Assembly: GCF_032854445.1 (NCBI RefSeq)
Contig: NC_088295.1
Span: 95,907,805 to 95,971,804 of the forward strand
DNA: 64,000 nucleotides
Direction: 5' to 3'
Origin: Liolophura sinensis
Lineage: Eukaryota; Mollusca; Polyplacophora; Chitonida; Chitonidae
Shown: piece after piece, positions 683 through 55,300 of the stretch
How the letters are laid out: each line of letters opens with the position of its first letter
Position numbering within the stretch: the first letter of the stretch is position 1
The notes under the pieces: generated by a model
Told to the model about the DNA's origin: nothing
The model's database searches: none
What the model saw: the letters and a program-made list of their open reading frames with translations, nothing else
Made by a program: the position numbers and the translations under genes

Positions 683-835
683 GGTTATCCCGTGCAGCAG
701 CTGATGGTAGATGCTGACAACCGAGTGGTAACCGTACAGAGGATTATCTCCCCTGATGAGCAAACTGTTACGCAGTCATCAATGTCTGTGAGGAGAGAAA
801 TGCCCGACGCTTCTCAAGCTCCCCTCATCGCAGTG
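683..835 (+). CDS. PRDM10: PRDM10 exon 1 in this window (internal coding exon, phase 0-0)
   Basis: The acceptor is ttcag at 678-682. The exon reads [20 protein letters not shown] onward, and upstream codons in the window do not supply a plausible start. The better donor is gtggtaagt (GT at 836). A weaker donor, tctgtgagg (GT at 788), would give a 105-nt exon in the same phase. The last 30 nt of the longer form ([10 protein letters not shown]) are themselves the first unit of the minisatellite that follows, so the choice decides whether repeat-derived residues are in the protein. Confidence 0.7.
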
Positions 836-3800
836 GTAAGTCTTTGCTTGAAGCTCCCACCAGCATAGTGGTAGGTCTTTGCTTGATGCTTCACCAGGTC
901 CCCTCTTTGCTGTGGTAGGTTTTTGCTTGACGCCTCACAATGTCCCCTCAGCATAGTGGTAGGTTTTTGCTTGACGCGTCACAAGCTTCCCTCAGCACAG
1001 TGGTAGGTCTTTGCTTGACGCTTTACAAGCTCCCCTCAGCATATTGGCAGGTCTTTGCTTTATGCTTCACAATGTCCCCTCAGCATAGTGGTAGGTTTTT
1101 GCTTGACACTTTACAAGCTCCCTTTAACATAGTGGTAGGCTTTTGCTGGACGTTTCACAATGTCACCTCAACATGGTGGTAGGTTTTTGCTTGACGCTTC
1201 ACAAGCTCCCCTCGGTACAGTAGCAAAATGTTTGCTTGACGCTTCACAAGCTCCCCTCAGAACAATGGTAGGTCTGCTTAATGCTTCACCGGCTCCCTCC
1301 AGCATAGTGGTAAGTCTTTGGTTACGTTTTACAAGGTCCCCTCAGTATAGTGGTAGGATTTTGCTTGACTCTTCACAAGCTCTTTCAGCACAGTGGTAGG
1401 TTTTTGCTTTATGCTTCACAATGTCCCCTCAGCATAGTGGTAGGTCTTTGCTTGATGCTTCACAAGCTCCTCTCAGCATAGTGGTAGGTTTTTGCTTCAT
1501 GTTTCACAAGCTCTTTTCAGCACAGTGGTAGGATTTTGCTTTATGCTTCATAATGTCCCCTCAGCATAGTGGTAGGTCTTTGCTTGATGCTTCACAAGCT
1601 CCCGTCAGCATAGTGGTAGGTCATTGCTTGACGCTTTACAAGTTCCCCTCAGCATAGTGACAGGTCTTTGCTTGACGCTTTACAAGCTCCCCTCAGCATA
1701 GTGACAGGTCTTTGCTTGACGCTTTACAAGCTCCCCTCAGCATATTGGCAGGTCTTTGCTTTATGCTTCACAAACTCCCCTCAACATAGTGGTAGGTTTT
1801 TGCTTGACGCTTCACAATCTCCCCTCGGTACAGTGGCAAAATGTTTGCTTGACGCTTCACAAGCTCCCCTCAGCACAGTGGTAGGTCTTTGCTTGATGCT
1901 TTACAAGCTCCCCTCAGCATAGTGACAGGTCTTTGCTTGACGCTTTACAAGCTCCCCTCAGCATAGTGACAGGTCTTTCCTTGACGCTTTACAAGCTCCC
2001 TTCAGCATATTGGCAGGTCTTTGCTTTATGCTTCACAAACTCCCCTCAGCATAGTGGTAGGTTTTTGCTTGACACTTCACAATCTCCCCTCAGTACAGTG
2101 GCAAAATGTTTGCTTGACGCTTCACAAGCTCCCCTCAGAACAATGGTAGGTCTGCTTAATGCTTCACCGGCTCCCTCCAGCATAGTGGTAAGTCTTTGGT
2201 TACGTTTTACAAGGTCCCCTCAGTACAGTGGTAGGTTTTTGCTTGACTCTTCGCAAGCTCTTTCAGCACAGTGGTAGGTTTTTGCTTTATGCTTCACAAT
2301 GTCCCCTCAGCATAGCTTCACAAGCTCCTCTCAGCATAGTGGTAGGTTTTTGCTTCACGTTTCACAAGCTCTTTTCAGCACAGTGGTAGGATTTTGCTTT
2401 ATGCTTCACAAGCTCCCGTCAGCATAGTGGTAGGTCTTTCCTTGATGCCTCACGAGGTCTCACAGTGGCAAGTCTTTGCTTGACACTTCACAACCTCTCC
2501 TCAGCATAGTGGTAAGTCTTTGAGGATGCTTTACGAGGTCCCCTCATTGCAGTGACAGGTCTTTGCTTGACGCTTCACAAGCTCCCCTCAGCACAGTGGT
2601 AGGTCTTTGCTTGACGCTTCACAAGCTCCCCTCAGCATAGTGACAGGTCTTTGCTTGACGCTTTACAAGCTCCCCTAAGCATAGTGACAGGTCTTTCCTT
2701 GACGCCTCAGGAGGTCCCCTCATCACAGTGGCAAGTCTTTGCTTAACGCTTCACAAGCTCCCCTCAGCACAGTGGTAGGTCTTTGCTTGACGCTTTACAA
2801 GCTCCCCTCAGCATAGTGACAGGTCTTTGCTTGACGCTTTACAAGCTCCCCTCAGCATAGTGACAGGTCTCTCTTTGACGCTTTACAAGCTCCCTTCAGC
2901 ATATTGGCAGGTCTTTGCTTTATGCTTCACAAACTCCCCTCAGCATGGTGGTAGGTTTTTGCTTGACACTTCACAATCTCCCCTCAGTACAGTGGCAAAA
3001 TGTTTGCTTGACGCTTCACAAGCTCCCCTCAGAACAATGGTAGGTCTGCTTAATGCTTCACAGGCTCCCTCCAGCACAGTGGTAAGTCTTTGCTTACGTT
3101 TTACAAGGTCCCCTCAGTACAGTGGTAGGTTTTTGCTTTATGCTTCACAAACTCCCATCAGTAAAGTGGTAGGTGTTTGCTTGACGCTTCACAAGCTCCC
3201 CTCAGAACAGTGGCAAGTGACACTTTACAAGGTCCGTCAGCACGGTGGTAGATCTACTTGATGCTTCACAAGCTCCCCTCATCACAGTGGTAGGATTTTG
3301 CTTCACAATTCGCAAGGTCTCCTCAACATAGTGGTAGGATTTTGCTTGACGCTTCGCAAGGTCTCCTCATCACAGTGGTAGGTTTTTGCTTGACGCTTCA
3401 CAAGGTTCCCTCAGCACCATGGTAAGTTTTTGCTTGACACTTCACAAGCTCCCCTCGGCACAGTTGTAGGTTTTTGCTTGATGCTTCACAATGTCCCCTC
3501 AGCACAGTGGTAAGTTTTTGCTTGAGGCTTTACAAGCTCCCTCAGCACAGTGGTAGGTTTTTGCTTGACGTTTGACAAGCTCCCCTCAGCGCATGTATTG
3601 GCCGACACTGTATTTTCTGACACTGTGTTTGCCAATGCACCGTGTTTGCTGACCGTGTATTGGCTGACCCTGCATTTGCTTATCCTGTATTGGTGACCCT
3701 GTACTTGCTAACAGTGTATTTACTGACGCTGTGTTGGCTCACAATGTATTGACTGACAATGTATTTGCTGAACCTGTATTTGCGATACTGTATTAGTGGA

Positions 3801-6800
3801 CCCTGTCTTGGTGACCCTATATTTGCTAACCCTGTCTGAGTGACCCTGTATTTGCTGACGCTGGATTGGCTGACCGTGTATTTGCTGACATTGTATTTGG
3901 TAACCCTTTATTGGCTCACAATGTATTGACTGACCATGTATTTGCTGACCCTGTATTGGCTGACCTTGTATTTCTTATACCATACAGATACCCTCCCACA
4001 GCCAGGCTAACTTCCATGCCATGCCGTCTCAGTCGACCGCTATGCCAAAAACCTCTCTGGGGATGATTGTGTCTAGCTCACACGCCACCCACAGCAGTTT
4101 GGTCTCCTTCGGTTCCACGTCTGAGGTTAGCACAACGGCGGGATCTCCCAGTATGCACGCTGCTCACATGGACCACTCAGGGGAGGGTGACGCAGACCCA
4201 ACAGTCAGCTCCATCAGTACAGTATTCACAGGCTCAGACATGATGGAGACCGTACCACCCAAGGTAGGCAGCTGTGATGTAGGCAAGATACAACATGCTG
4301 TTTATGCAGCTGTAGTTTAGGTGAGATACAACGTGCTGTTCATGCCGACCATGAATTTTTGTGTAACGCTGTATGTTTATATCACTGGCCACAGATTTAT
4401 GGTAAGAAAAGACCTTGGGTGGTAGTCATGGCAGAAACTGTATTTCTTCTGTAGAGATAGCTGTAGAAATGTGCAGCAATGACATGGACACATTGCCAGA
4501 TTCCTCCAGGGCCTAATCCAGCCCTTCTCAGCGTCCGATTACCAGATGCTGCCCTTCCCTCTAAGTGCCCTTTGTGTCAAAAGGAAAAAAAAAAAACAGA
4601 AACAGCCTGAATTCATTATAAGACTTGAATTATTTACTTAGTCGCTAGGTTTTGACTAGTTGTTCGCCACAATAGTTTTGGCAAATACAATTTCTGTGTG
4701 GTGAAAGCATATTGATGTCCCTTCGCCACAGTGGCGAAAGCAGTGGATGCCTGTCAACTTCAGTTGTTTAGGTTTAAAGTTCGTTAATTTACTCAAATTT
4801 AATGTTGGATCCAGAATCAAGAAGGAATATTTGACTTCGGTGTGAAAGAACTTGGTTATGAAAACAACAAAGTTTTTAAAGACCATTTAACATTGGAAAT
4901 GTATGCCCTGAAGCAAGTGACGAAAATTGGACCCAGGATTATTCAGTTAGCATTCAGATTATGCGAACAACTTTTTAATGATGGCCTGGGGTAGCTATGA
5001 TACCTGTGATGATCAGATGCACATGTCATCCGGGATGGCAAAGTTCTCCACATATCAATAAATACAAGCCATCCTTTGACTGAATTTTTGGGCCAGATAC
5101 ATGTTGTGGTGCGCACGTGGGTTGGTGGTCAACCATAGGAATCGAGGCCCTTAAAAATGTATGAGAATCGAAATATTCAACAATGAGGTGCCAGTGTTTC
5201 GACCCCCTGCCCTTCTGAGGCCAGATTAGGCCCAGTCCTCCCATTCATATGTCTGGGTTTTGATGATGTAACATGTGAATGATGAGGTTACTGTTTCCGG
5301 ATAGAGCTTTGCATGATGATATAACAAGTTACAGTTACGGACTGAGGTTGAGGTGTGCAAGTTACATGTGGATGATCACCCAGTCGAGGCCGTCTTTTGT
5401 CATAGAGGTCGCAAAGCTACCGAGGTGACAAGATTACCAAGACTGGGTGATTATCTATCTTGGACACCAAAACCAAAAGCGGTAAGTGACTTACACAGTG
5501 GTTTTATTGTTTATCAAGAGTTAGTCGTAGTTGTTAACTATTTTACTTTTGACATCTGGTAATAGCTCTGCTATTTCACAGTTTTACCATACGTGGCCTA
5601 ATCCTTTAAGATATATTAAACAACCCTGTTGTATCTTGTTACATGCACCTGACCTTCTAACCTTCTAAGATTATCTATGCTTACTTGTTTACTTTCATAT
5701 TCTGTTGAAAAGGCGGCTTCAGTAGGCCCTGTGTTTCTTTATGGTTCGACTTCTATTATAAGCCACTGAGACTCGCAGGGTCTGGTTTGGAGAAGCTAAT
5801 AGCTTGACATTTTCAGCGTACCCACAGGAGTGACAGTGGCAGCGGGGAGCCTGACACCACCCAAGGGGACGGCGAGGACTTTCCTCCTCACAGAGGTGGG
5901 TGACCACAGCCGTGTCTTGTACATACATGCATGTATCATATTAGGCCTACTTCTTAAATGTTCAGCACTTTACTGTGCAGTAAATAAAACCGAATTTGTT
6001 CAGTTTGCCCATGGAACTATTACATACTCTTTATTCAGTCATATTATTGTTCAGTTTGCCCATGGAACTATTACATACTCTTTATTCAGTCATATTATTG
6101 TTCAGTTTGCCCATGGAACTATTACATACTCTTTATTCAGTCATATTATTGTTGAGTTTGCCCATGGAACTATTACATACGCTTTATTCAGTCATATTGA
6201 ATGCCATTATTTACTTTCTGTATTGGAAAAAGGTGCTTCCCATGTTTTTGCTCCGCTGTTGGATAATCATGTGGTTGTTATTCTAGTGCTTCAGTCTGGA
6301 CATTTACCAGATGTTGTTATTGTAGTGCCTCACTCGGGACATTTACCAGATGTTGTTATTGTAGTGCCTCACTCGGGACACTTACCAGATGAAAGTGATG
6401 AGACTGGGCTTCTTCACTCGACAGTGGTGGGTTCCACGGTCAAACACATCAGAGGATGTTATGGATGCCTCTCTTGATACGAGTCACTTGAGTCAGGAGT
6501 CTGTGGGCTCCAGCGGACTCACTTCGTCCAGCGACTCAGCCATGGACTCAGGACTTGATCGCACAGTGGACAGCAGCTCTGTGGGTCAGTGCTTCCATTT
6601 ATTTATTTCAGTTTTATGTCCAGAAGGCTCTGGGTACCCCTCTTTACAGTGCACACATGCACAAAGAAATCATAATTACATCTATATTCTAGACTTTACA
6701 ATTGCTTGTTGATCCTGCAACTGGCTATACAATTGCTTGTTGATTGCGCAACTGGCTATACAATTGCTTGTAGATCCCACAACTGACTTTACAATTGCTT

Positions 6801-9800
6801 GTTGATCCTGCAACTGGCTATACAATTGCTTGTAGATCCCACAACTGACTTTACAATTGCTTGTTGATCCTGCAACTGGCTGTACAATTGCTTGTAGATC
6901 CCACAACTGACTTTACAATTGCTTGTTGATCCTGCAACTGGCTGTACAATTGCTTGTAGATCCCACAACTGACTTTACAATTGCTTGTACATCCCGCAAC
7001 TGGCTTTACAATTGCTTGTAGATCCCACAACTGACTTTACAATTGATTGTAGACCCTACAATTGACTTTACAATTGATTCAAAACCCTTCATTACAGCCA
7101 TACCCCGTTACAGCCAGGAATCAGTAGGAAACCCCCAAAATGCGGATTAATTGGCTTAAATGCAGGACATCAAGGGTTTCCGAATGGTGACCTGCTTATT
7201 CAGTCTTTTTATGCTAACTCTTGTCATTGAGCACACTAATTTTAACAAAATGGAAGTCAAGCAAATGGCCAGCGGTGATGTGTTCAAAGATATAAAGGCA
7301 CAGAAAGTCACTTACATTGGTAAACAAATCCTTAATTCTCAAAATTACGGCATCTCACCTGGACAAACTCAGATCATCACATAATCTATCCAATGCCCTG
7401 AAAGGTCCACCTATGACACTGATGATCACACCGCACATGACACTCTTCATCAGTCCATCCATGACACTGATGATCAAGCCGCACATGACACTTGTCATCA
7501 GTCCATCCATGGACACTGATGGATCATGCCGCACCTGACACTGGTCATCAGTCCATCCATGACACTGATGATCATGGCGCACATGACACTGGTCATCAGT
7601 CCATCTGAGACACTGATGATCATGCCACACATGACACTGGTCATCAGGCCATCCGAGACACCTGATGATCATGCTGCACATGACACTGGTCATCAGGCCA
7701 TCTGTGACACTGATGATCATGGTGCACATGACCACCGGTCATCAGTCCATCCATGACACTTACTGATCATGCCGCACGTGACACTGGTCATCAATCCATC
7801 CATGACCCCGGATGGATCAAGGCGTACATGACGCTGGTCATCAGTCCAATCCATCACACTGATGATCACGCCGCACATGACACTGGTTATTAGTTCATCC
7901 ATGACACTGATGATCATGCCACACATGACATTGGTCCATCAGGCCACACATGACAGTGGTCATCAGTCCAAACCTTACACTGGGCAACAGTATATCAATG
8001 GCACTGGTCATCAGGCCACACACGGGAACTGGTTATCAGGTCACAACATGACACTGGTCATCAGCCAAACCTGACACTGGGCAACAGTACATCAGTGACA
8101 CTGGGTCATCAGGTCACACATGACACTGGTCCATCAGGTCACACATGACACTGTTCATCAGTCCAAACCTTACACTGGGCAACAGTACATCAATGACACT
8201 GGTCATCAGTCCCAAACTTCACAGTGGTCATCAGGCCACACATGACACTGGTCATCAAGTCCAAACTTGACTCTGGTCATCAGGTCACACATGACACTGG
8301 TCATCAGTCCAAACCTCACACTGGGCAACAGTACATCAATGACACTGGTCATCAGTCCAAACCTCACACTGGCAACAGTACATCAATGGACACTGGTCAT
8401 CAGTCCAGACTTCACAGTGGTCATCAGGCCACACATAACAACTGGTCATCAGTCCAAACCTGACACTGGGTGACAGTACACTCAATGACACTGGTAATCA
8501 GGCTGCACATAACACTGGTCTTTGGGCCACACATGGCAATTGGTTCTTGGGCCACCCATGCCATTGGTCCTTTGGTCACCCATGACTCTGGGCCTTGGGC
8601 CACACATGACACCAATCTTTGGGCCACCCATATCACTGATCATCAGTCCACCCATGCCACTGGTCCTTGGGCCACCCAAGGTATGAATAGTATGATAAAT
8701 GACAGTCATTTGTATGTTTTTGTGCACGCAGGCTTCATATAGATGATGGGTTATTTTCTCTGTCCAGGTCATCATCAGATATCACCACCTCCCTATAGTG
8801 CTCATCATATGACCCCGTCAGATCACCGGTTACATACTTCAAACAACCACTCCAGTCAATCAGTTAATCATGCTAGTCAATCCGGGCTTTTGCTGGCACC
8901 TTCAGGACATGTGACTGCCACACTTAACTTGGCACCCAATCAGATGTCCACCATCTCTGGCTATGCGGTGTCTAACCTACAGTATGCTAACTTCCCTATG
9001 ACACAACCTCAGCAGGCCTCAGGCTCTGGGCAGATGGGCTACTTCATACCTGTGGAACTGCCCAATGTCCAGAATGTGCAAACTGCCCAGTCCACTGTCA
9101 CCCCTAATGGTCAGCTGGATGAGAGAGAAGACAAGGAGAATGTGGACACTGACCAGAGAAGGGTGAGCATCCAGCATTTATCTGTCAGTGTAGCTGTTAT
9201 AGGCCATATAGATTATAAGTTTATGTACCCATCGTAGATCCAAACTAATGAGTGTTTGGGTGTTATGTTTCTGTTCATAACATGAAATGCACAGCTTTTT
9301 TCATGAGGAGGACTTAATTGTGTCACACACCTGGAGGTTTCTAATGGTGAACTCTAACCTTTGGACTGTATTCACAAGTACAGGTATGTGCATACTGCTG
9401 CGTGGGTGGATGCATGTATGCAGGGGCCACTTTCACAAAGCAGCATATGACATTTATTTATCTTACATTTGTCGTATGATATTTTGTACGTTACTATTAA
9501 CATACCATCGTCGTACAAATACAACATCTTTGTGAAAGAGCCCCAGGTGTCTGTACAAGTGGGTGTGTACATAGTTTGTTCTCAAATGTCAGGAGTGTGT
9601 TCATGGATATGTGCATATGTCAGGTGTGGGTACATGGTGTGTTGTGCATATGTCAGGTGTGGGTACATGGTGTGTGTGCAAATGTCAGGTGTGTGTAGAC
9701 GGTGTATGTGCCAATGTCAGGTGTGTGTACACAGTGCATGCTCATGTCATGTGTGGGTAAATGGCATATGTGGAAATGCGTATGTATCAGGTGTGTGTAC

Positions 9801-12800: not shown

Positions 12801-15800
12801 GTGTAAATCCAGCATGTGTCTGTAATACTGTGGATGTGGTGTAAATCCAGGATGTGTCTGTAATACAGCAGATGTGGTGTAAATCCAGCATGTGTCTGTA
12901 ATACTGTGGATGTGGTGTAAATCCAGGATGTGTCTTATACTGCAGATGTGGTGTTTGTAAACTATAATAATTTTCAGAGTTGATGTATTTTGTGTACTAT
13001 TTTATCACCAGCTGGAAAAGGAAGGAGGAGATTATGGTTACTTCAACACGAGGGATGAGAATCTGTGTAACTGGATGATGTTTGTACGTCCAGCTGAGAA
13101 CTACGCTGAGCAGAACCTGGTGGCCTATCAGTATGGATATGACATCTTCTTCACCGTGACAAAAGCCATTGAGCCCAAGCAGGAGCTAAAGGTGTCTCCA
13201 TTTTTTGTCTTCTTATTCCTGGCGTTTGTTTTCCTGTGCAACATTCACCCTACTTTTCCTGTGCAACATTCACCCTACTTTTCCTGTGCAACATTCACCC
13301 TACTTTTCCTGTGCAACATTCACCCTACTTTTCCTGTGCAACATTCACCCTACTTTTCTAGTCTTAACATGGCTTCTTGTTCAACACAACTAGTAAATTA
13401 TTGTTGTCTTGCAGCTGTGTGACTTAAATACTGCCAATATAGCAGTAAAACCTAATTATTGATTCATTTTATACCTGATCTCTTTTTGGGCAAGGATTTA
13501 AAACCTTATCCAACATAGCTCTGTCTTACATGTGTTTTGTCACACCCATTGGATGAGTGGCAAGTGTGTGAATTAGTGTGTGAATTAGTGTGTTGCTGTG
13601 TTTTCAGGTCTGGTATGCTGCACACTATGCTGAAAGGCTGGGTGTCAACACCCTGCCTATTCTACAGGAGGACATGGAAGGTAAGGCTGATAGATGATGG
13701 AATGAAGGGTGACAGGGCTTGTATGGGGTTAATACATGGCTTGTATATGGCTTTTACAGGGCTGGTACGGGGTTTATACATGGCTTAAACAGGGCTTATA
13801 CGGGGTTTATACATGGCTTGTATATGGCTTATACAGGGCTTGTACAGGGTTTATACATGGCTTATACAGGGCTTGTACAGGATTTATACATGGCGTATAC
13901 AGGGCTTGTACATTGTTTATACATGGCTTATACAGGGCTTGTACAGGGTTTATACATGGCGTATACAGGGCTTGTACATTGTTTATACAGGGCTTGTATG
14001 GGGTTTATACATGGCTTATACAGAGCTTGTATGGGGTTTATACATGGCTTATACAGTGCTTGTACGGGGTTTATACATGGTTTATACAGGGCTTGTACAG
14101 GCTTTATACATGGCATATACAGGGCTTGTACATTGTTTATACATGGCTTATACAGGGCTTGTACAGGGTTTATACATGGCATATACAGGGCTTGTACATT
14201 GTTTATACATGGCGTATACAGGGCTTGTATGGGGTTTATACATGTGTTATACATGGTTTATACAGGGCTTGTACAGGGTTTATACATGGCTTATACAGGG
14301 TTTATACATGGCATACACAGGGCTTGTACATTGTTTATACATGGCGTATACAGGGCTTGTATGGGGTTTATACATGTGTTATACATGGTTTATACAGGGC
14401 TTGTACGGGGTTTATTCATGGCATATACAGGGCTTGCATGGGGTTTATACATGGCTTATACAGGGCTTATACATGGCATATACAGGGTTTACAAAGAGCT
14501 TGTACGGGGTTTATACAGGGCTTATACAGGGCTTTTACATGGCTTCTACATGGCATAAACAGGGATTGTATGGGGTTTATACATGATTTATACATGGCTT
14601 TTACTTGTGTTATACATGGCTTATTCAGGGTTTGTACAGGGTTTATACAGGGCTTATACATGACTTTTACAGGGTTTATACATGGGTTTTACATGGCTTA
14701 TAAAGTGATCCATACATCCAAGGTTAGGTACCATGTGTATGTTATGGTTAATTTTATTGGAAGACCTTTACTCAAGTGGTCACATAATCAGCTGGATGAC
14801 CTGCATGATCTAGCTTGTTACAATTCACCATTGTTGTCAGTTGACCAGGCTACCATACACGTGTGTCCTCTGGTTTTAGGCTGTAATCATTCTACTCTGA
14901 TTTTAGCTGACCCGGATGCCAAGTGATGTGCTGGTTTTAGGCTGTAATCATTCTGCTCTGATTTCAGCCGACCTGCATGCCAAGTGCTGGTTTTAGGCTG
15001 TAATCATTCTACCCTGATTTTAGCTGACCCAGATGCCAAGTGATGTGCTGGTTTTAGGCTGTAATCATTCTAATCTGATTTTAGTTGACCCAGATGCCAA
15101 GTGATGTGCTGGTTTTACGTTGTAATCATTCTACTCTGATTTTAGCTGACCCGGATGCCAAGTGGTGTGCTGGTTTTAGGCTGTAATCATTCTACTCTGA
15201 TTTTAGCTGACCTGGATGCCAAGTGATGTGCTGGTTTTAGGCTGTAATCATTCTACTCTGATTTTAGCTGACCCGGGTGCCAAGTGATGTGCTGGTTTTA
15301 GGCTGTAATCATTCTGCTCTGATTTCAGCCGACCTGCATGCCAAGTGCTGGTTTTAGGCTGTAATCATTCTACTCTGATTTTAGCTGACCCAGATGCCAA
15401 GTGATGTGCTGGTTTTAGGCTGTAATCATTCTAATCTGATTTTAGTTGACCCAGATGCCAAGTGATATGCTGGTTTTACGTAGTAATCATTCTACTCTGA
15501 TTTTAGTTGACCCGGATGCCGAGTGGTGTGCTGGTTTTAGGCTGTAATCATTCTACTCTGATTTTAGCAGACCCGTATGCCAAGTGGTGTGCTGGTTTTA
15601 GGCTGTAATCATTCTACTCTGGTTTTAGCTGACCTGGATGCCAAGTGATGTGCTGGTTTTAGGCTGTAATCATTCTACTCTGATTTTAAACTGACCTGGA
15701 TGCCAAGTGATATGCTGGTTTTAGGCTGTAATCATTCTACTCTGATTTTAGCTGACCCAGATGCGAAGTGGCCATGTTACGAGTGCCCTAAGAAGTTCCG

Positions 15801-18800
15801 TACGTCTGCTCAGCTACAAAACCATCTGGCGGAGCATGAGGAGGGTGGAACCGAGGGTGACCCGGATGAAGAGTATGACAGTAACGGTGTCAAGAAACCC
15901 AAACGTAAAGCCACACAACTCACAGCCTCTGGGGTGCCCAAGAAAAGGGGACGACCTGCCAAAACACTGAAGGTTTGTGCTACGTGCCATACAAAACACT
16001 GAAGGTTTGTGCTACGTGTCATACAAAACACTGGAGGTTTGTGCTGCGTGTTGTACAAAACACTGAAGGTTTGTGCTATGTGTCATACAAAACACTGAAG
16101 GTTTGTGCTATGTGTCATACAAAACACTGAAGGCTTGTGCTACGTGCCATACAAAACACTGGAGGTTTGTGCTAGTGTCATACAAAACACTGAAGGTTTG
16201 TGCTAGTGTCATACAAAACACTGAAGGATTGTGCTACGTGTCATACAAAACACTGAAGGTTTGTGCTACACGTCGTACAGAACACTGAAGGTTTGTTCTA
16301 CGTGTCATACAAAACACTGGAGGTTTGTGCTAGTGTCATACAAAACACTGAAGGTTTGTTCCAAGTGTCATACAAAACCCCTAAAGTTTGTGCTATGTGT
16401 CATACAAAACACTGAAGGTTTGTGCTACGTGTCATACAAAACACTGAAGGTTTGAGCTATGTGTCATACAAAACACTGAAGGTTTGTGCTATGTGTCGTA
16501 CAAAACACTGAAGGTTAGTGCTACCTGTCTTAAAAAAACACTGGAGGTTTGTGCTACGTGTCATACAAAACACTGAATGTTTGTGCTAGTGTAGTACAAA
16601 ACATTGACGGTTTGTGCTACGTGTCATACAAAACACTGAAGGTTTGTGCTACGTGTCATACAAAACACTGAAGGTTTGTGTTAGTGTAGTACAAAACATT
16701 GAAGGTTTGTGCTACGTGTCATACAAAACACTGGAGGTTTGTGCTATGTGTCATACAAAGCACTGAAGGTTTGTTCTAGTGTAGTACAAAACATTGAAGG
16801 TTTGTTCTAGTGTCGTACAAAACACTGGAGGTTTGTGCTATGTGTCATACAAAACACTGCAGGATTGTGTTCTGTGTCATACAAAACACTGAAGGATTGT
16901 GCTACGTGTCATACAAAACACTGAAGGTTTGTGCTCCATGTCATACAAAACACTGAAGGTTTGTGCTACATGTCATACAGAACACTGAAGGTTTGTTCTA
17001 CGTGTCATACAAAACACTGGAGGTTTGTGCTAGTGTCATACAAAACACTGAAGGTTTGTGCTATGTGTCGTACAAAACTCTGAAGGTTTGTGCTACGTTT
17101 CATACAAAACACTGAAGGTTTGTGCTTCGTGCTATACAAAACACTGAAGGTTTGTGCTAGGTGTCGTACCAAACACTGAAGGTTTGTGCTGCATGTCATA
17201 CAAAGTACTGAAGGTTTGTGCTCTGTGTCATACAAAACACTGAAGGTTTGTGCTGCATGTCATACAAAGTACTGAAGGTTTGTGCTCTGTGTCATACAAA
17301 ACACTGAAGGTTTGTGCTCCATGTCATACAAAAACACTGAAGGTTTGTGCTCCATGTCATACAAAACACTGAAGGTTTGTGCTATGTGTCATACAAAACA
17401 CTGAAGGATTGTGCTATGTGTCATACAAAACACTGAAGGTTAGTGCTACATGTCGTACAAAACACTGAAGGTTAGTGCTACATGTCGTACAAAACACTGA
17501 AGGTTAGTGCTACATGTCGTACAAAACACTGAAGGTTAGTGCTACATGTCATACAAAACACTGAAGGTTTGTGCTACATGTCGTACAAAACACTGAAGGT
17601 TTGTGCTACGTGTCGTACAAAACACTGAAGGTTTGTGCTACGTGTCATACAAAAACACTGAAGGATTGTGCTACGTGTCATACAAAAACACTGAAGGTTT
17701 GTGCTCTGTGTCATACAAAAACACTGAAGGTTTGTGTTATGTGTCATACAAAACACTGAAGGTTTGTGCTGCGTGTCATACAAAATACTGAAGGTTAGTG
17801 CTACATGTCGTACAAAATACTGAAGGTTTGTGCTACATGTCGTACAAAACACTGAAGGTTTGTGCTCCATGTCATACAAAACACTGAAGATTAGTGCTAC
17901 ATGTCGTACAAAACACTGAAGGTTTGTGCTCCATGTCATACAAAACACTGAAGGTTAGTGCTACATGTCGTACAAAACACTGAAGGTTTGTGCTACGTGT
18001 CATACAAAACACTGAAGGTTTGTGCTACATGTCGTACAAAACACTGAAGGTTAGTGCTACATGTCGTACAAAACACTGAAGGTTTGTGCTACGTGTTATA
18101 CAAAACACTGAAGGTTAGTGCTACGTGTCATACAAAACACTGGAGGTTTGTGCTACGTGTCATACAAAACACTGAAGGTTTGTGCTCTGTGTCATACAAA
18201 AACACTGAAGGCTTGTGCTCCATGTCATACAAAAACACTGAAGGTTTGTGCTACGTGTTATACAAAACACTGAAGGTTTGTGCTATGTGTCATACACAAC
18301 ACTGAAGGTTTGTGCTACGTGTCATACAAAACACTGAAGGTTTGTGCTACGTGTCATACAAAACACTGAAGGTTTGTGCTACGTGTCATACAGAACACTG
18401 AAGGTTTGTGCTCCATGTCATACAAAACACTGAAGGTTTGTTCTACGTGTCATACAAAATACTGAAGGTTTGTGCTCCATGTCGTACAAAATACTGAAGG
18501 TTTGTGCTACATGTCGTACAAAACACTGAAGGTTAGTGCTACATGTCGTACAAAACACTGAAGGTTTGTGCTACATGTCGTACAAAACACTGAAGGTCTG
18601 TGCTACATGTCGTACAAAACACTGAAGGTTAGTGCTACATGTCGTACAAAACACTGAAGGTTTGTGCTACGTGTCATACAAAAACACTGAAGGTTTGTGC
18701 TACGTGTCATACAAAACACTGAAGGTTTGTGCTACATGCCATACAAAACACTGAAGGTTAGTGCTACATGTCATACAAAAACACTGAAGGTTTGTGCTAC

Positions 18801-21389
18801 GTGTTATACAAAACACTGGAGGTTAGTGCTACGTGTTATACAAAACACTGGAGGTTTGTGCTACGTGTTATACAAAAACACTGAAGGTTTGTGCTACGTG
18901 TTATACAAACAGGATTACCTTGTAAGATTATAAATTGTATGCAGTGCTCTTTGACTGCCACACTTTTTACTGAGAAAACATTCGAAAGCGTTAGTGTTTT
19001 AATTATAAATATCTGAGGTTGAAACTTAACTTTCGTCACTAAGGATGCTGCAGCACTGGGTATATTGAAATAAGCCAATTCATTTGAGGGTTTCTTCTGG
19101 GACTGTTTTCACTTTGCTTATATGATACATTGTGTTTATCCTGCAGGAAAACGGAGAAACTAAAGTTTTCCAGAGCTGGAAGAAGAGGACAACCAATCTG
19201 TATCTGACAAAGTGAGCTCACACTTTGATTAACTGAAAGATGTCTTGTACTAATATTTTGAAGTCTGGTAAATAATTTCATCTTATTTCAAACTTTCATT
19301 TCTTCTAATGAAAGCGTAACTTCTCCCTGTGCTCTGTGGATGTAAGTTTAAGGATCTTGTGACACTTGATTTCAGAACACTGAAGAAATACCAGAAGAGG
19401 CATGATCCTGAGATGATCAAGAGAACTCTTAAGTCTCTCTACAAACGGAAGGGCAAGGAGACAGGTGGGAACGAGTGGGTGTGTACTCACTGTGACCTCA
19501 CATTTGACAACTCCAGCCTGCTCAACCTGCACACGCTGACCCACGCAGCCGAGGATGTGGGGCTGGAAGGCACAGAAAAGACTGTTTCCATATCCACTGG
19601 TGAAGATGGAGAGCTGATCATTACGGGCAGTGTGCTGGAGGGTGCAGGGGATGCCAGCAGCGAGGGTAACCTGGTCAGCCTACAGAGTTCTCCCCCTGCC
19701 TGCCCAGTCTGCCACAAGGAGTTCACCTCCAAGCGAGATCTCATTGAGCATGCGAGCGACCACGCCATGACTCGGAAAAGCTGCGTGCGAGCAAACAAGT
19801 GCTCACTGTGTTGGAAGGGCTTCAGCACCCAGGAGAGGCTGCAGAAGCACATGCTATGTCACGGAGATGAAGAGACCAAACCTCTTCAGTGTACTGTCTG
19901 CTTCAAGCGCTTCATGAACAACTCCGCGCTATCCTGTCACATGAAGACCCACAGCAACAGGAAGTTCCACGAGTGCCCCATCTGCCGCATGGGCTTTGAC
20001 CAATCCCTGGTGCTCAAGGACCATGTGAAGCAGCATGAGACCAATGGGGTGTATATATGTCCTATTTGCCAGCGGCAGTTTGACGACTTCGTCCTCATCA
20101 AAAAGCACATTCGCGGATTCCACTCGGAAAAACGCTACCCTTGTCCTGACTGTGACAAAATATTCCCGCGCTCAGACAAGCTGAAGCTGCACATGCTGAA
20201 GCACTCCGCCCACAGGGACTTCATGTGCGAGACGTGCGGGCGGCAGTTCAAACGCAAAGACAAGCTCAAGGAACACATGAAGAGGATGCACTCTATAGAG
20301 CGGGAACAGAGAATCCGCGAGAAGTCAGAGCGCAGACCCAGCCTCAAGCGCTTCATTCCCAAGGTGTCGCCCACAGACTATCACCGCTTCATCTACAAAT
20401 GTCACACTTGTCTACTGGGGTTCAAGAGGAGAGGTATGCTGGTGAACCACCTGGCTAAGCGTCATCCAGATATCAAACCTGACCAAGTGCCTGAGCTCAA
20501 TCTGCCCATCCTAAAGACACAGAGAGACTACTACTGCCAGTACTGCGACAAGGTCTACAAGTCTAGCTCCAAGAGGAAGGCCCACATCATCAAGAACCAC
20601 CCAGGGGCAGATCTGCCTCTGAGCAGCAGGACAAAGACGCTGATCCCAGACATCCCAGGCCTGCCCAACCCCACATACTCCCAGACTGTGGGCAGCATCA
20701 CCACCATGCCCCACTCCTGTGACTTCTGCCACAAGCAGTATGCCAGCAAGGCCAAATTGATGCAGCATCAGAGGAAGAAGCACTCCGAGCTTGTGCCCGC
20801 TGTGTCGGATCGCAGGCTTAAGGATGAGATGGAGGGGGAGGAGGAGTGCCTGACGGAAGAGCCAAAGACTCATGAGATCCATGTATATGAGACAGTGCAG
20901 GCCGCAGCCTTAGCCCAGGCTTCCACAGAGATCCCCACAGCCGACCTGCTCACCCAGGCCATGAGTGAGCTCACCCAGAGCCTGAGTGAGTACCGTAACC
21001 CCACCGGAGAGTATCGCCTCACTCCGGGCACCCACACTACCCTGGTGCAGGCCGCCACTCACATCCCCATCCAACACTCCACAATTGAGCTGAGCCACTT
21101 GGGACAGGCTCTTGGGCAGACCCAGTACACCACTCAAGGCCACCTTGCCACAGTCCAGGCTGCCCCCTCCCCCGGACAGCCCCAGGCCCCTGCTGCAGTA
21201 CCTGTCACTATACAGACCATACCTGTGTCCGAAGTGGTGAATGGTCAGACAATGTCTGTCAGTGGACAGACAGTGGCGGTCAGCGGAGGTACCACCATTC
21301 AGGTGCCTGTGTCCACTCTGGGCACCATTCAGGGACAGACCTACTTACAGACTCAACGCACCTGGGCAAACTACCCAAATTACCGCTAA
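683..21389 (+). CDS. PRDM10: PRDM10 orthologue: PR-domain C2H2 zinc-finger transcription factor, 13 exons, 5' partial
   Basis: Nuclear DNA-binding regulator of the PRDM family. My exon model is 683-835, 3988-4263, 5817-5895, 6453-6584, 8768-9162, 10741-10837, 11274-11414, 11650-11762, 13012-13191, 13608-13680, 15752-15972, 19147-19211 and 19376-21389. These join in phase to 1312 codons plus TAA. In partial-protein numbering the PR domain lies at about 378-546 ([36 protein letters not shown]), one C2H2 finger at 555-575, eleven fingers at about 678-1110, and a Gln/Thr-rich tail follows, containing [16 protein letters not shown]. The PR core, the [16 protein letters not shown] finger, the QYCDKVYKS finger and the tail motif match what I remember of vertebrate PRDM10, so the assignment is firm. 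No initiator Met is in the window, because exon 1 follows a splice acceptor. The human protein, from memory, has about ten fingers; this one has twelve. The tail is shorter than in human and ends where a tandem array begins. Splice choices at exons 1, 4 and 12 are the least certain. Confidence 0.92.
836..3590. repeat. Minisatellite, about 44-bp unit, seeded at the PRDM10 exon 1 donor
   Basis: Roughly 60 units built of cacaagctcccctcagca, tagtggtaggtctttgct and tgacgctt. The last 30 nt of exon 1 plus its donor (ctcaagctcccctcatcg, then cagtggtaagtctttgct) are the first unit. Each unit therefore carries a donor-like gtggtaggt. Confidence 0.95.
3591..3985. repeat. Degenerate short repeat (about 20 bp, tgaccctgtatttgc type)
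   Basis: Imperfect runs of tgaccctgtatttgctga and tgtattggctgac fill the space between the 44-bp array and the exon 2 acceptor. Units are much more diverged than in the neighbouring array, suggesting an older array. Confidence 0.8.
3988..4263 (+). CDS. PRDM10: PRDM10 exon 2 (Ser/Thr/Met-rich, phase 0-0)
   Basis: The acceptor is cttataccatacag and the donor is cccaaggtaggc. It encodes 92 residues beginning [20 protein letters not shown] and ending METVPPK. The sequence is low in order-promoting residues and rich in Ser, Thr and His, as expected for the unstructured N-terminal half of PRDM10. Codon usage is more GC-rich than the flanking repeats. No domain is recognised. Confidence 0.75.
4264..5816 (+). 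other. PRDM10 intron 2: unique sequence, no gene recognised
   Basis: About 1.5 kb with no clear tandem array, unusual for this gene. It contains an A-run near 4590 and an open frame at 5353-5473 ending in a good donor (aaagcggtaagt at 5474). I could not place that frame as a PRDM10 exon and recognise no domain. Confidence 0.5.
5817..5895 (+). CDS. PRDM10: PRDM10 exon 3 (acidic/Ser-rich, phase 0-1)
   Basis: The acceptor is gacattttcag and the donor is cacagaggtgggt. In the phase-0 frame it reads [20 protein letters not shown] and then DFPPHR, leaving one base. The charged, Ser/Gly-rich composition and good splice sites support it. The other open frame here (starting MTVAAGSL) does not keep phase. 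Confidence 0.65.
5996..6205. repeat. Tandem repeat, 51-bp unit, 4 copies
   Basis: Four nearly identical units containing cagtttgcccatggaact and attacatactctttattc. The length is a multiple of three, so it is open in two frames and mimics a repeat protein. It is intronic. Confidence 0.95.
6285..6390. repeat. Short tandem repeat, about 39-bp unit, 3 copies, just upstream of PRDM10 exon 4
   Basis: Units contain gttgttattgtagtgcct, cactcgggacatttacca and gat. It ends about 60 bp before the chosen acceptor of exon 4. Confidence 0.85.
6453..6584 (+). CDS. PRDM10: PRDM10 exon 4 (Ser/Asp-rich, phase 1-1); 5' splice boundary uncertain
   Basis: It encodes [20 protein letters not shown], then [20 protein letters not shown] and SSV. 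The donor is tctgtgggtcagt (GT at 6585), whose phase fits exon 5. The only nearby AG that keeps phase with exon 3 is atcag at 6448-6452, which has a poor pyrimidine tract. A better-looking acceptor, ttcactcgacag (AG ends 6424), breaks the frame. The coding content is convincing; the left edge is not. Confidence 0.6.
6697..7085. repeat. Minisatellite, 31-bp unit, in PRDM10 intron 4
   Basis: About 12 units of tttacaattgcttgtaga plus tcccacaactgac, with a higher-order alternation of gttgatcctgcaactggc and tagatcccacaactgac types. Confidence 0.95.
7395..8680. repeat. Minisatellite, 24/48-bp unit, in PRDM10 intron 4 before exon 5
   Basis: Units of acatgacactggtcatca and gtccatccatgacactga, with the second half drifting into ggccacacatgac and ggccttgggccaccc variants. 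The core ggtcatcag resembles the start of exon 5 (ccag then gtcatcatcag), so the array may also derive from that junction. Confidence 0.93.
8768..9162 (+). CDS. PRDM10: PRDM10 exon 5 (Gln/Ser/His-rich, phase 1-0)
   Basis: The acceptor is ttctctgtccag and the donor is agaagggtgagc. The 395-nt exon encodes [20 protein letters not shown], then a Gln/Ser/Asn-rich stretch ([19 protein letters not shown]), and ends acidic ([16 protein letters not shown]). It is a disordered, activation-type region before the PR domain. The upstream minisatellite has units carrying ggtcatcag, which resembles the first bases of this exon. Confidence 0.85.
9423..9544. mobile_element. Short palindromic MITE-like element in PRDM10 intron 5
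   Basis: Ends are inverted repeats: ggggccactttcacaaag at the left and ctttgtgaaagagcccc at the right, about 122 bp apart. Terminal sequence of the gggcc...tttcacaaag type is common in small foldback elements of marine invertebrates, from memory. No unambiguous target-site duplication is visible. Confidence 0.6.
9580..10725. repeat. UG-rich minisatellite, 30-bp unit, before PRDM10 exon 6
   Basis: About 38 units of gtgtgtacatggtgtgtg plus ggcatgtgtcag, strongly G/T-biased on the transcribed-sense strand. The 30-bp unit leaves all three + frames largely open, giving long Cys/Val-rich spurious ORFs. The array ends 16 bp before the exon 6 acceptor. Confidence 0.97.
10741..10837 (+). CDS. PRDM10: PRDM10 exon 6 (basic linker before the PR domain, phase 0-1)
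   Basis: The acceptor is attgattgacag and the donor is gaaatctgtaagc. It encodes [20 protein letters not shown] then [12 protein letters not shown], a basic linker leading into WCEEC of the next exon. It lies directly downstream of a 1.1-kb UG-rich tandem array whose units end in tgtcag. Confidence 0.8.
10838..11273 (+). other. PRDM10 intron 6: unique T-rich intron
   Basis: 436 bp, pyrimidine-rich (several ttttgttttaccat-like stretches), with no array and no mobile element that I can see. Confidence 0.5.
11274..11414 (+). CDS. PRDM10: PRDM10 exon 7 (start of PR region, Cys-rich knuckle, phase 1-1)
   Basis: The acceptor is tctacttgcag and the donor is cgcctggtaaga. It encodes [20 protein letters not shown] then [22 protein letters not shown]10 relatives have a short Cys/His cluster followed by a LTRARASLP-like stretch just before the PR fold, and this matches in order and spacing. 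Confidence 0.9.
11650..11762 (+). CDS. PRDM10: PRDM10 exon 8 (PR domain, N-terminal strands, phase 1-0)
   Basis: The acceptor is gttttttcag and the donor is ctgcgggtaggt. It encodes [20 protein letters not shown] then [18 protein letters not shown]. The GVFAKR and TQFGP motifs are the first PR/SET strands of PRDM10. The following intron holds a SINE and a 38-bp array. Confidence 0.92.
11820..12074 (+). mobile_element. tRNA-derived SINE (family B) in PRDM10 intron 8
   Basis: Sense orientation, slightly 5'-truncated. It starts near ggttggttagcgcactgg (A-box-like), has B-box-like agttcaagtccagctc, the central ccaccataatgctgaccg and cgtcgtataagtgaaata, and ends in an (aaat)n tail. It splits the first unit of the 38-bp array: ctgtaatact lies before it and gcggatgtgg directly after. 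Confidence 0.9.
12075..12955. repeat. Minisatellite, 38-bp unit, in PRDM10 intron 8
   Basis: About 23 units of gtgtaaatccaggatgtg, tctgtaatactgcagatg and tg, with sub-types (ctgtgg/cagcag/ctgcag; aggatg/agcatg) alternating in a higher-order pattern. One related unit lies upstream of the SINE at about 11785-11819. Confidence 0.96.
13012..13191 (+). CDS. PRDM10: PRDM10 exon 9 (PR domain core, phase 0-0)
   Basis: The acceptor is tttatcaccag and the donor is ctaaaggtgtct. It encodes the most conserved PR block: [26 protein letters not shown] and IEPKQELK. It corresponds to the SET-like core, but, as in other PRDM proteins, the canonical SET NHxCxPN motif is replaced by NWMMFVRPA. Confidence 0.96.
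13230..13358. repeat. Tandem repeat, 25-bp unit, 5 copies, in PRDM10 intron 9
   Basis: Near-identical units of cctgtgcaacattcaccc plus tactttt. Very low divergence suggests recent expansion. Confidence 0.96.
13608..13680 (+). CDS. PRDM10: PRDM10 exon 10 (end of PR domain, phase 0-1)
   Basis: The acceptor is gctgtgttttcag and the donor is atggaaggtaagg. It encodes [20 protein letters not shown] then EDME. VWYA is the last conserved PR strand. A 33-bp tandem array begins about 40 nt after the donor. Confidence 0.93.
13720..14705. repeat. Minisatellite, 33-bp unit of three 11-bp sub-repeats, in PRDM10 intron 10
   Basis: Units cttatacaggg, cttgtacaggg and tttatacatgg alternate. A length divisible by three without stops yields a 396-codon open frame (13736-14926) that is not a gene. 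Retaining the intron from exon 10 reaches TGA within a few codons. Confidence 0.96.
14870..15751. repeat. Minisatellite, 61-bp unit carrying the PRDM10 exon 11 acceptor
   Basis: About 14 units of ctgacccggatgccaagt, gatgtgctggttttaggc and tgtaatcattctactctg attttag. Each contains a full copy of the branch/pyrimidine/AG region and the first ~18 nt of exon 11. Most decoys read ADPDAK then TGA, where the true exon has TGG. Confidence 0.97.
15752..15972 (+). CDS. PRDM10: PRDM10 exon 11 (first C2H2 finger and AT-hook-like basic linker)
   Basis: The acceptor is ctctgattttag and the donor is ctgaaggtttgt. It encodes [20 protein letters not shown] and continues to HLAEH, giving Cys555, Cys558, His571 and His575 of a C2H2 finger. 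A basic [14 protein letters not shown] stretch with an RGRP AT-hook core follows. The 61-bp array upstream carries copies of the acceptor plus the exon start, and the 32-bp array downstream carries copies of the exon end plus the donor. The true donor (aaggtttgt) is weaker by consensus than many decoys (aaggttagt). Confidence 0.93.
15973..18910. repeat. Minisatellite, 32-bp unit carrying the PRDM10 exon 11 donor
   Basis: About 90 units of aaaacactgaaggtttgt plus gctacgtgtcatac. The last 12 nt of exon 11 (aaaacactgaag) and the donor gtttgt form the start of the unit. Variants include aaggttagt, a stronger donor match, in many copies between about 16500 and 18840. Confidence 0.97.
19147..19211 (+). 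CDS. PRDM10: PRDM10 exon 12 (linker, phase 0-2); reading frame uncertain
   Basis: The acceptor is tttatcctgcag and the donor is gacaaagtgagc. Phase-consistent translation is [20 protein letters not shown] then TK, joining [11 protein letters not shown] of exon 13. An overlapping frame reads [13 protein letters not shown], which looks more like an acidic linker. It would need the internal acceptor gttttccag (AG ends 19174), a different frame and another junction to exon 13. I kept the version that joins cleanly. Confidence 0.55.
19376..21389 (+). CDS. PRDM10: PRDM10 exon 13: eleven C2H2 fingers and C-terminal tail, stop TAA
   Basis: The acceptor is cttgatttcag, and the 2014-nt exon is open to TAA at 21387-21389. 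Eleven C2H2 fingers begin, in order, at VCTHC, ACPVC, KCSLC, QCTVC, ECPIC, ICPIC, PCPDC, MCETC, KCHTC, YCQYC and SCDFC. All have a plausible His pair, several of the longer-spaced kind (HIRGFH, HMKRMH, HLAKRH, HIIKNH, HQRKKH). Fingers 3-11 line up with the vertebrate PRDM10 array as I recall it; fingers 1-2 look additional. The tail is Gln/Thr/Pro-rich with several serial TVSGQT-like phrases, typical of an activation region. The whole finger array in one exon is notable, since the vertebrate gene splits it among several. The final codons (WANYPNYR) lie in the first unit of a 63-bp tandem repeat. Confidence 0.97.
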
Positions 21390-21885
21390 GTGTGGCTAAC
21401 TGTGACGTGTGTGTGACAATGCAGACAAACTACCCAAATCACCACTACATGTGGCTAACTGTGACGTGTGTGTGACAATGCACTTAGACAAACTACCCAG
21501 ATCACCACTACATGTGGCGAACTGTGACGTGTGTGTGACAATGCACTTAGACAAACTACCCAAATCACCACTACATGTGGCTAACTGTGATGTATGTGTG
21601 ACAATGAACTTAGACAAACTACCCAAATCACCTCTAGGTGTGGTGAACTGTGACGTGTGTGTGACAATGCACTTAGACAAACTACCCAAATCACCACTAC
21701 ATGTGGCTAACTGTGACGTTTGTGTGACAGAATGCGCTTAGACAAACTACCCAAATCACCACTACGTGGCTAACTGTGACGTGTGTGTGACAGAATGCGC
21801 TTAGACAAACTACCCAAATCACCACTAGATGTGGCTAACTGTGATATGTGTGTGACCCATGAAAATAACCTGGACAAACTCCCAA
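21355..21885. repeat. Tandem repeat, about 63-bp unit, overlapping the PRDM10 stop codon
   Basis: About 8 units of acaaactacccaaatcac, cactacatgtggctaact and gtgacgtgtgtgtgacaa. The first unit contains the last PRDM10 codons and TAA. A shorter decayed derivative (ggacaaactccccaaact, gtgac) continues to about 22110. Confidence 0.94.
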
Positions 21886-23190: not shown

Positions 23191-23629
23191 TATGAACTAG
23201 CAGTACATGTTATTGTCAGCATTGTGAATAGCCTCTGCCTGTAACCTCATATAGTCGAGTACAATGAGGACAATATAAATACACGTGCCATGTGGACGTC
23301 GGCATTAGTGTACAGAGATTACTATCCATCAGTTTTCAGTTCAGTTATTAATATTTTATAACTACTGGGTGCAGGCACCGGGGTGGAAATTGTTGGACTT
23401 GTATGACATCACTGAGCAGAGACCGCTGACTGTTGACGAAAAAAAAATGTATTAAACCAGTCTCATTATCTAGTGATTTTACGTGCCATGTTACTCAGAT
23501 TAATATAACCTTTTTCAATATTTTTTACACTCAATTTAATAACATATACAGGGCTAGCTAATTACATGTATGAATAAATAATATATCTTGGACACTAATC
23601 CTTTAACGACTGATATTATCTGTCTTAGC

Positions 23630-52300: not shown

Positions 52301-55300
52301 TATGGCACAACTCCTTCCTGTAATTCACATTCCTGTGTTGTCGCTAGTATCATGGTAATTAGCCATTTAGTGGGCTCACCTGGTGTAGGCAAAATGTCGG
52401 AATGACTGCAGATCTCAGGGTGCTGTGTTTGATGGATGCCAGTGGTAGGTAACGCATTTTCCAACCACTGGGCTTAACTTGGAAACATTTTTTCACTGCG
52501 TGGTTTTCTCAGCACACATTGACCTTGCCTGCACTGTTTACAATAAACCTAACAATGGAAGGTGTCTGCCTGTTACACCATTCACGAGTGCCTATGCAAA
52601 TTACTAGCTGCACGTACCTCTACACCTTTGCTAACACTACTGGGTGGAGCTACACAACGTTCTGTTTCATTTACTTGGAGTAGTGCCAGAGTTTTAGTGC
52701 CAACACGCACCTCAGGCACTTGTCTCCCGTCTCCTGCGAGAGTACGAGACCAACACAAATATGTGCACTGAAATTTAGGTGGCCTCATCTTCATTCCTTG
52801 GGAAAATCATCGCCTCTTGTTAAAACGAAACCTATATCTGTCGTGATGGCTGTGGTGAGTGTAAAGTGTGAGTCTTAGATACACCCTAAGAATTCCTTCG
52901 TCGGCATATGACTGAAAAATTGTTGAGCATGACGTTAAACCCCAAGCACTCATTCACTCACTCACTCTTTTCCTTTGACCAATCTGGCTTCACAGGCATT
53001 TGAGTTTCTGCTTTTTGTTTCTTCTTTCCCTTTGACCAATCTGGCCCCAGGAACAGTTGACAGTCCTGAATGTGGCCAGCCTGGGCTAACTTAAGTATTT
53101 GTGTTTCTGCTCTCACTTTGGCCAGTCGTCGTCATATGACTGAAAAATTGTTGAGTACTGCTCTCACTTTGGCCAGTCTGGGCTGACTCAGGTATTTGTG
53201 TTTCTGCTCTCACTTTGGCTAGTCTGGGCTGACTCAGGTATTTGTGTTTCTGCCCTCACTTTCACCAGTCTAGGCTGACTTAAGTATTTGTGTTTCTGTT
53301 CTCACTTAGGTCAGTCTGGGCTACTTAGATATTTGTGTTTCTGCCCTCACTTAGGTCAATCTGGGCTACTTAGATATTTGTGTTTCTGCCCTCACTTTGG
53401 CCAATCTGGGCTGACTTAAGTATTTGTGTTTCTGCTCTCACTTTTATCAGTCTGGGCTGACAGAAGCGGTAAGGCAGAGTAATATCAGTCTAACCAGTGC
53501 TGAGGATCAGATGGTGAAGTTTGTAACAGAGCATGTACCCAAAGGAAGCTGCCCCCTAGCTGGCAACTCCATCCATGTCGACAAAGAGTTCCTGAACCGA
53601 TACATGCCACGGTTCATGAGCCACCTCCACTACAGGATTGTTGACGTGAGCACATTGAAGGAACTCTGCAGGTAAATCTGGTCTATTCTAGCCTCTTAAT
53701 GGTAAGAGGGAACTCTGCAGGTAAATCTGGTCTATTCTAGGCTCACAGGGGTAAGGGGCGGGTCATGAAATGTGTCAGGAGGAACATGATTTTTGAGGGT
53801 TTATGGACAACAATCAGCTACACTTAAACCACATGATGCACATAAGTGATGAGAAAAAGTTTTGCCTTACTTCACTTCTAGAAGTTACTTACTTAATCAC
53901 CTATAGTAAAACTGGTATAAGTGTGCATGGGTCTTAAGTAAGGTTTATGGAAGTGGGTGTAAAGAGAACCGAAAATTGTCAAAGTTTTATTAATACCTAA
54001 TTTATCGCTATGGATGGTAAAAGAAGAAAAAACGAGTGTAGTTTAGTGAAAAAGAGAATATAATCCTCAAATCTGATATTCATTTACAACTTCCTAAATG
54101 AGAAAAGGGACTTCCCCAAGACACCAGTTTCCAAAACAACCATTTCTTACACTGGATATGCTGTCCACAACCATCAACACTGATTCACACAGGACACGCT
54201 GTACACACAACCATTAACACCAATTCACACAAGAAATACTGTACACACAACCATCAACACTGATTCACACAGGAAACACTGTACACACAACCATTAACAC
54301 TGATTCACACAAGAAATACTGTACACGCAACCATTAACACCGATTCACACAAGAAATACTGTACACGCAACCATCAACACTGATTCACACAGGAAACACT
54401 GTACACACAACCATTAACAGTGATTCACACAGGAAATACTGTACACACAACCATTAACACGGATTCACACTGGAAGTACTGAACAGGCAAGCATAAACAC
54501 TGATTCGCACAAGAAATACTGTACACAACCATCAACACTGATTCACACAGGAAACACTGTACATACAACCATTAACACTGATTCACACGGGAAACGCTGT
54601 ACACAACCATCAACACTGATTCACACAGGAAACACTATACACAACCATCAACACTTATTCACACAGGAAACGCTGTACACACAACCGTTAACACTGATTC
54701 ACAAAGGAAACACTGTACACACAACCATCAACACTGATTCACACAGGAAACACTGTACATACAACCATTAACACTGATTCACACGGGAAACGCTGTACAC
54801 AACCATCAACACTGATTCACACAGGAAACACTATACACAACCATCAACACTTATTCACACAGGAAACACTGTACACACAACCATTAACAGTGATTCACAC
54901 AGGAAACACTGTACACACAACCATTAACACGGATTCACACAGGAAACACTGTACACACAACCATTAACACGGATTCACACAGGAAACCTAATTCAGATAA
55001 TTATTGTGATGTTTGTTCTGGTTGAGTGTAGCAGAAAAGCTATTTGTGTTGGCAGACGCTGGTACCCTGATGTGTATTTACGTTGTCCTCCCAAAGCCCT
55101 CAGCCACAGGTTTGTTGATTTTTGTTCTGCTCTCAGTCTGTCCACAAAAAAGTGGTTAATCTGTGTGTACACACTTTGATATGGCACAATACCGGGTTAG
55201 GAAGAATCAGGAAGTTTTGTAAAGGATGAAGATTTTTTTTTTTTTTTTTTTTTTTGATTGGTGTTTTACGCCGCACTCAAGAATATTTCACTTATACGAC

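Follow-up and report, generated by a model that had tools for sequence, protein, structure and literature searches.

Why do tandem arrays in a gene-bearing stretch of chiton DNA lie across the ends of exons, and does the exon-intron junction itself give rise to them? The question is raised by 64,000 nucleotides of the Liolophura sinensis genome (609 Mb), hereafter the window (C1:95907805-95971804; C1 is contig NC_088295.1), in which Tandem Repeats Finder (TRF) placed 37 merged intervals covering 40,746 of the 64,000 bases, and which carries a PRDM10-like and a REXO2-like gene on its + strand. An initial annotation had proposed, as a general rule, that minisatellites in these two genes nucleate at exon-intron junctions. 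In the window and in a sample of 28 other loci we found array units spanning exon edges in several unrelated genes, with an excess over intron interiors at donors and none at acceptors. These arrays are probably minisatellites of the kind called 'mirages' in lancelets, silent where they lie across donors, together with a donor-side excess above what chance would give.

Both genes were recognized from exon matches (the SET exon of the PRDM10-like gene to 3ihx, human PRDM10, E 6e-19; exon 4 of the REXO2-like gene to mitochondrial oligoribonuclease, E 2e-26), exon models and splice sites being derived from the sequence without RNA and exon numbers counting in-window exons only. We placed 36 edges (the PRDM10 stop region and 35 splice edges, of which the PRDM10-like gene has 25 and the REXO2-like gene 10) and aligned the 60 bases centred on each to the flanking DNA on both sides, over a maximum of 5 kb each, with a threshold score of 18. 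A local copy crossing the edge was found at 6/36, namely at five of the 35 splice edges and at the stop region (~21388), and these are exactly the six edges that had been named as duplicated into neighbouring DNA; the remaining 30 showed no such copy at score 18. The description of all six as junctions fits the five splice edges, which are the donors after 835, 15972 and 53671 and the acceptors before 15752 and 53451, but not the stop region, which is no exon-intron junction. The REXO2 exon 4 donor has a two-copy duplication and no large array.

The features concerned all lie on the + strand. The donor edge of PRDM10-like exon 1 (683..835) falls within an array of 44-bp units (801..3590; 62 copies could be aligned with the authentic one) founded on the exon end and its donor, and the exon terminus GCAGTG|GTAAGTC recurs in the unit. 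Exon 11 of the same gene (15752..15972) has arrays over both edges, one of 61-bp units holding the acceptor and 19 exonic bases (14870..15770) and one of 32-bp units, in ~92 copies, holding 13 exonic bases and the donor (15960..18909). The zinc-finger exon (19376..21389) has a TAA stop at its end and is probably the last exon, marking the true gene end; an array of 63-bp units (21367..21856) runs from the last codons across this stop. At REXO2-like exon 4 (53451..53671), an array of 46-bp units (53073..53461) holds the acceptor and 11 exonic bases, while the exon end and donor lie in a 49-bp tandem duplication of two copies (53660..53755). A further array of three 39-bp copies (6274-6391), with a unit ending in ACCAGAT, lies near the start of a PRDM10-like exon; it is a possible acceptor-linked case, left uncounted, with the acceptor placed ~33 bases downstream.

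Each of these arrays is specific to its locus. In a genome search that skips very common words, the exon 1 region gave 18 matches, all within its own array, and the REXO2 exon 4 region gave seven, all at its own locus, with no second copy of either region elsewhere in the assembly. Among 138 arrays compared by unit (42 from the window and 96 from the sample, some redundant) there were 20 related pairs; in 19 both members belonged to the same piece, or both to the window, and were separated by no more than a few kb, and the only pair between pieces joined the short units of L009 and L029. On the own-locus matches and the unrelated units we reject the spread of one satellite; the units, with that one short-unit exception, bear out the initial annotation on this point.

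To ask how often edges are struck, we used a sample of 28 pieces, picked irrespective of arrays or repeats. Each extends over 10 kb with the best exon match of its locus at the centre, and the loci (10 kinesin, eight CCT/Cpn60 and 10 myosin) were taken down the E-value lists of exon matches; two Cpn60 matches (C5:5566404 and C6:7942446), which lie in long open frames and are probably intronless, were left out. A first set of 95 exon matches kept 170 of 190 possible edges, 20 being dropped for weak splice scores. The second set added 96 edges from 61 further exons in the same pieces, chosen by codon score and by eye, blind to edge arrays; candidates half covered by arrays were excluded beforehand, which biases this set against finding cases. 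A myosin exon that is duplicated in L025 accounts for two of the resulting 266 edges; with these two removed, 132 donors and 132 acceptors are left. In the main test each array was collapsed to one unit, because a single edge-founded array fills much of an intron, and coverage of edges was compared with that of positions 100-600 bp inside the same introns.

Array units spanned 8/132 donors against 1.32 expected (Poisson P 7e-5) and 1/132 acceptors against 2.26 expected. Donors in this sample are thus shown statistically, though on few genes, to be struck about five to six times more often than intron interiors, whereas acceptors are struck about as often as random intron positions, and chance founding explains the acceptor cases. 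Enrichment of exon-edge sequence in array units, the very test by which the junction rule was to stand or fall, was accordingly found over these 264 edges for donors and not for acceptors, and since acceptors show no excess, 'exon-intron junctions' is too broad a rule. The eight donors lie in L012, L016 (two), L028 (two), L029, L004 and L002, the last doubtful (donor 5242 lies 118 bases beyond the domain match and its copies lack GT) yet kept. In all, units spanned the boundary at nine donors, L002 included, and one acceptor of the blind sample; the L025 donor stayed outside the eight, being one base short of the 6-base rule. A donor at 4632 in L028 was dropped as spurious (a weak 18-bp array), one at 640 in L013 was borderline (score 18) and uncounted, and one at 3234 in L019 was kept out of the blind counts since it was found via its array.

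Several other counts agree with the donor excess. Window and sample pooled gave 11/149 donors against 2.01 and 3/150 acceptors against 3.28. When whole pieces were resampled, the donor rate minus the interior rate was 0.05 (95% range 0.01-0.09) and fell to zero or below in 0.2% of resamples, while the acceptor difference spanned zero. Correction for guanine-cytosine (GC) content raised the donor expectation from 1.32 to 1.54 (P 2e-4), and composition does not explain the excess. Random founding within each piece predicted 2.16 donors against 10 seen (one of them later judged spurious), and a first founder null over 170 edges predicted 3.13 spanned edges against nine seen (eight donors and one acceptor). 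Per collapsed kb, array starts at donors of these first 170 edges numbered 3.44 spanning the edge, 1.2 at 0-50 bp, 0.73 at 50-150 bp, 0.25 at 150-250 bp and 0-0.45 beyond; towards acceptors of the same edges there was no rise (0.23-0.64 throughout). A strong donor motif (score >=5) occurred in the units of 10/73 gene-body arrays in sense and of 0/73 in antisense. Among arrays spanning no known edge the figures were 5/59 and 0/59; of those five, one in L028 (period 25) adjoins a known mirage and one is the mirage that L019 carries where a CCT-like exon ends, the other three lying inside introns (L004 6924-7218, one in L017 and window 9545-10711).

Some results weigh against a donor excess of this kind. 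While the first set gave 7/83 donors against 0.86, the second set alone gave 1/49 against 0.46, no clear excess. L016 and L028 supply 4/8 of the donor cases, and without both the count is 4/119 against 1.01 (P 0.02), or 3/116 against 0.95 (P 0.07) if L002 is also removed; moreover, the Poisson P assumes that pooled positions are independent, which they are not fully. A strict test over 39 whole sample introns gave a weak result, three donors and no acceptors against 1.29 expected for each. Raw array cover reached 10/170 edges (two of them belonging to the duplicated L025 exon) against 13-27 of ~170 positions at 40-500 bp inside introns, so that edges are not the places richest in arrays; we rejected raw cover as a measure of nucleation, a single edge-founded array filling much of an intron. 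Finally, it is from sequence that we infer splicing of the authentic copy.

The sample donor cases read by eye are those of L012, L016 (two), L025, L028 (two), L029, L004 and the doubtful L002. Across the donor cases, those of the window included, 13 to 93 bases of the outer unit are exonic. The junction thus stands at varied places inside the units, which argues against a fixed breakpoint at AG|GT. In nine firm donor arrays, GT was kept in 48-100% of aligned copies (those below 60% identity being dropped) and, in eight of the nine, at least as often as the mean of the unit's dinucleotides (0.65-1.0); the exception was L019 (0.48 against a dinucleotide mean of 0.67), and the doubtful L002 array had GT in 0/3 copies. 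Such retention fits copies that do no harm, and since GT is kept in most arrays, pseudo-donors are not generally purged. The authentic donor is nevertheless stronger than most array copies in two cases: in the exon 1 array (801-3590) it reads GTAAGT where most copies have G at intron position 4, and in the L028 array at 5496-6071 (reverse strand coordinates; donor 5518) it reads GTGAGT where most copies have C at position 3. Microhomology at young duplications, tabulated in 15 rows, was mostly short or partly slipped, and four of the rows represent one C-rich tract. The L019 mirage (3211-4151), at the end of a CCT-like exon with its donor after 3234, has a 36-bp unit of which 25 copies were aligned.

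We suggest that each of these locus-specific arrays would have started as a short tandem duplication (~30-125 bp) whose unit happened to span an exon edge. Judging from the sequence, a duplication across a donor would have no effect on the transcript, as it leaves the donor nearest the exon where it was and adds all further copies to the intron; the array at the stop codon may be tolerated by the same logic. The array would then grow and turn over as an ordinary minisatellite, most of all near chromosome ends. The gradient itself is plain: across the 28 pieces, array cover was lower the farther a piece lay from the contig end (Spearman -0.61, P 6e-4), averaging 39% in the 11 pieces within 5 Mb of an end and 5.8% in the 17 others, although it is not absolute, as a piece 0.19 Mb from the C4 end is nearly array-free. 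The window lies ~0.46-0.53 Mb from the end of C1 (96,433,062 bases), and its array density fits this subtelomeric position. Human minisatellites cluster subtelomerically; the strong climb of array cover towards contig ends is a likeness, with the difference that the ends here are those of contigs, telomere repeats standing at the start of C10 and C13 among the matches listed.

Silence accounts for tolerance but not for excess, because intron interiors should be equally tolerant. As tolerance leaves the donor excess unexplained, we infer that more duplications are supplied near the 3' ends of exons, and we put about even weight on the excess reflecting a region there in which short tandem duplications arise more readily. 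Whether 5' splice-site regions (exon 3' ends and ~100 bp of intron) form a mutational hot zone for minisatellite birth in this chiton, exceeding intron interiors several-fold and having no counterpart at acceptors, is a more tentative proposal.

Rated next as a source of the excess is the possibility that exon DNA is duplication-prone in general and that selection leaves only donor-spanning and stop-spanning copies, the junction being nothing special. We hold this to be plausible, though on balance doubtful. In its favour, pooled units have 44% GC, compared with 33-39% in introns near edges and 47-49% in exons; the outer unit is more than half exonic in 9/12 donor cases (eight if L028 3008 is given a 66-bp unit); and the array at the stop region, too, belongs to the silent type. 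Units spanning no known edge, however, differ only slightly from matched DNA (41.5% against 40.0% GC), and from the preference for GC a rise of no more than 1.2-fold would be predicted at donors. Acceptors, furthermore, show no clear deficit (1 against 2.26 expected, or 3 against 3.28 with the window), so that selection against acceptor-spanning copies is not shown.

Pure chance is the next to be considered, since dense subtelomeric arrays and short collapsed introns might by themselves lead to edges being struck this often. The window alone supports an edge excess over chance weakly: in the collapsed-array test its donors gave 3/17 against 0.82 expected (P 0.05) and its acceptors 2/18 against 1.27 (P 0.36). 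A null drawn over 56 whole introns (17 from the window and 39 from the sample; collapsed median 436 bp), which skipped 28 neighbouring exon pairs for a model-coordinate gap or a weak site, is also kind to chance, as TRF array starts in the window struck two donors and two acceptors against 1.30 each and the sample introns gave the low counts mentioned above, as did the second set of edges and the sample without L016, L028 and L002. The TRF starts in this null, however, miss the exon 1 donor, which edge alignment counts. Chance also fits poorly with the blind donor count, GC-corrected or not, with a donor difference that stays above zero under resampling of pieces and with the 10 to 0 sense bias of donor motifs, and we judge it improbable as the whole explanation.

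A general junction-linked birth, in which either a donor or an acceptor nucleates arrays via R-loops, stalled forks or repair at exon edges, is very unlikely. Both edge types are present in the window, where array starts are dense near donors and acceptors alike; yet acceptors show no excess in the blind sample, array starts are flat towards acceptors in the first 170 sample edges, and the position of the junction varies within units. GC skew, examined with R-loops in mind, was not distinctive at donors (0.03-0.10 in introns near donors and 0.04-0.08 near acceptors). The data do not support nucleation by one process acting at every junction. Least credible of all is an artefact of assembly or collapse, for although arrays are hard to assemble and were read from the assembly itself, the mean divergence of donor-array copies from the authentic copy is ~9-24%, the exon 1 and exon 4 regions each map to a single locus, and several unrelated genes show the same anatomy.

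Neither the phenomenon nor its link to intron gain is novel. In the accessible parts of the lancelet work, mirages are described as minisatellite-like tandem duplications of exon-intron boundaries of both edge types, with splice signals inside many copies and a model of intron gain (PMC3087553); the loci given are Adh3 of B. floridae and B. lanceolatum and the globins BflGb6 and BflGb9 (PMC3087553). Two more mirages are reported in lancelet PGBD5, where Adh and troponin C are cited (PMC3902484, in the part available), and the available text of two further lancelet papers treats tandem repeats with none mentioned at exon edges (PMC2206037, PMC2632668). The chiton arrays resemble the amphioxus mirages in their tandem units spanning the boundary, in the many copies that keep splice signals and in units that, apart from the L009/L029 pair, are unrelated between loci. 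They differ in their molluscan host, which extends mirages to another phylum, in size (~60-90 copies in the largest arrays here compared with three or six repeat units given for BflGb6) and in a sampled donor excess without an acceptor excess, which the accessible sections of PMC3087553 and PMC3902484 do not report. In the open-licence literature searched we found no mollusc mirage, the cases described there being from lancelets only; a 27-bp minisatellite is described in an intron of one abalone gene, the available text not showing how it stands to the exon edge (PMC6905558). As far as the available excerpts go, the Rogers model derives intron gain from tandem duplication of AGGT-containing segments (cited in PMC3087553) and the potato RdRp gained an intron by tandem duplication (PMC4974935). 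The chiton arrays likewise involve tandemly duplicated exonic sequence that includes AG|GT, with the difference that the introns concerned already exist and grow longer from one end.

That a small sample already contains mirages in several unrelated mollusc genes suggests a wider route of intron lengthening. If the donor-only excess holds genome-wide, it would offer a measurable signature by which a process linked to the 5' splice site could be told from founding by chance, and also a natural substrate for models of intron gain. Should the tentative hot zone be real, thousands of introns would carry, or have carried, donor-seeded arrays, with changes in intron length driven from the 5' end.

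Three minor observations were made alongside. A probable short interspersed element (SINE), dispersed, with a recurring open-frame fragment and present on both strands, occurs at window 11817-12045, 31736-31988 and 55258-55444 and also in L005, L012, L014-L016, L018 and L019. The duplicated exon of L025 consists of tandem copies of one myosin-head exon (476-580 and 1572-1667; model positions 118-152 and 121-152) and resembles the alternative exons of a muscle myosin gene. The molluscan haemocyanin beta-sandwich domain (PF14830) gave eight consecutive matches on C8, by which the genome is recognized as molluscan and a lancelet origin is rejected; the layout of molluscan haemocyanin is one of eight functional units in one gene.

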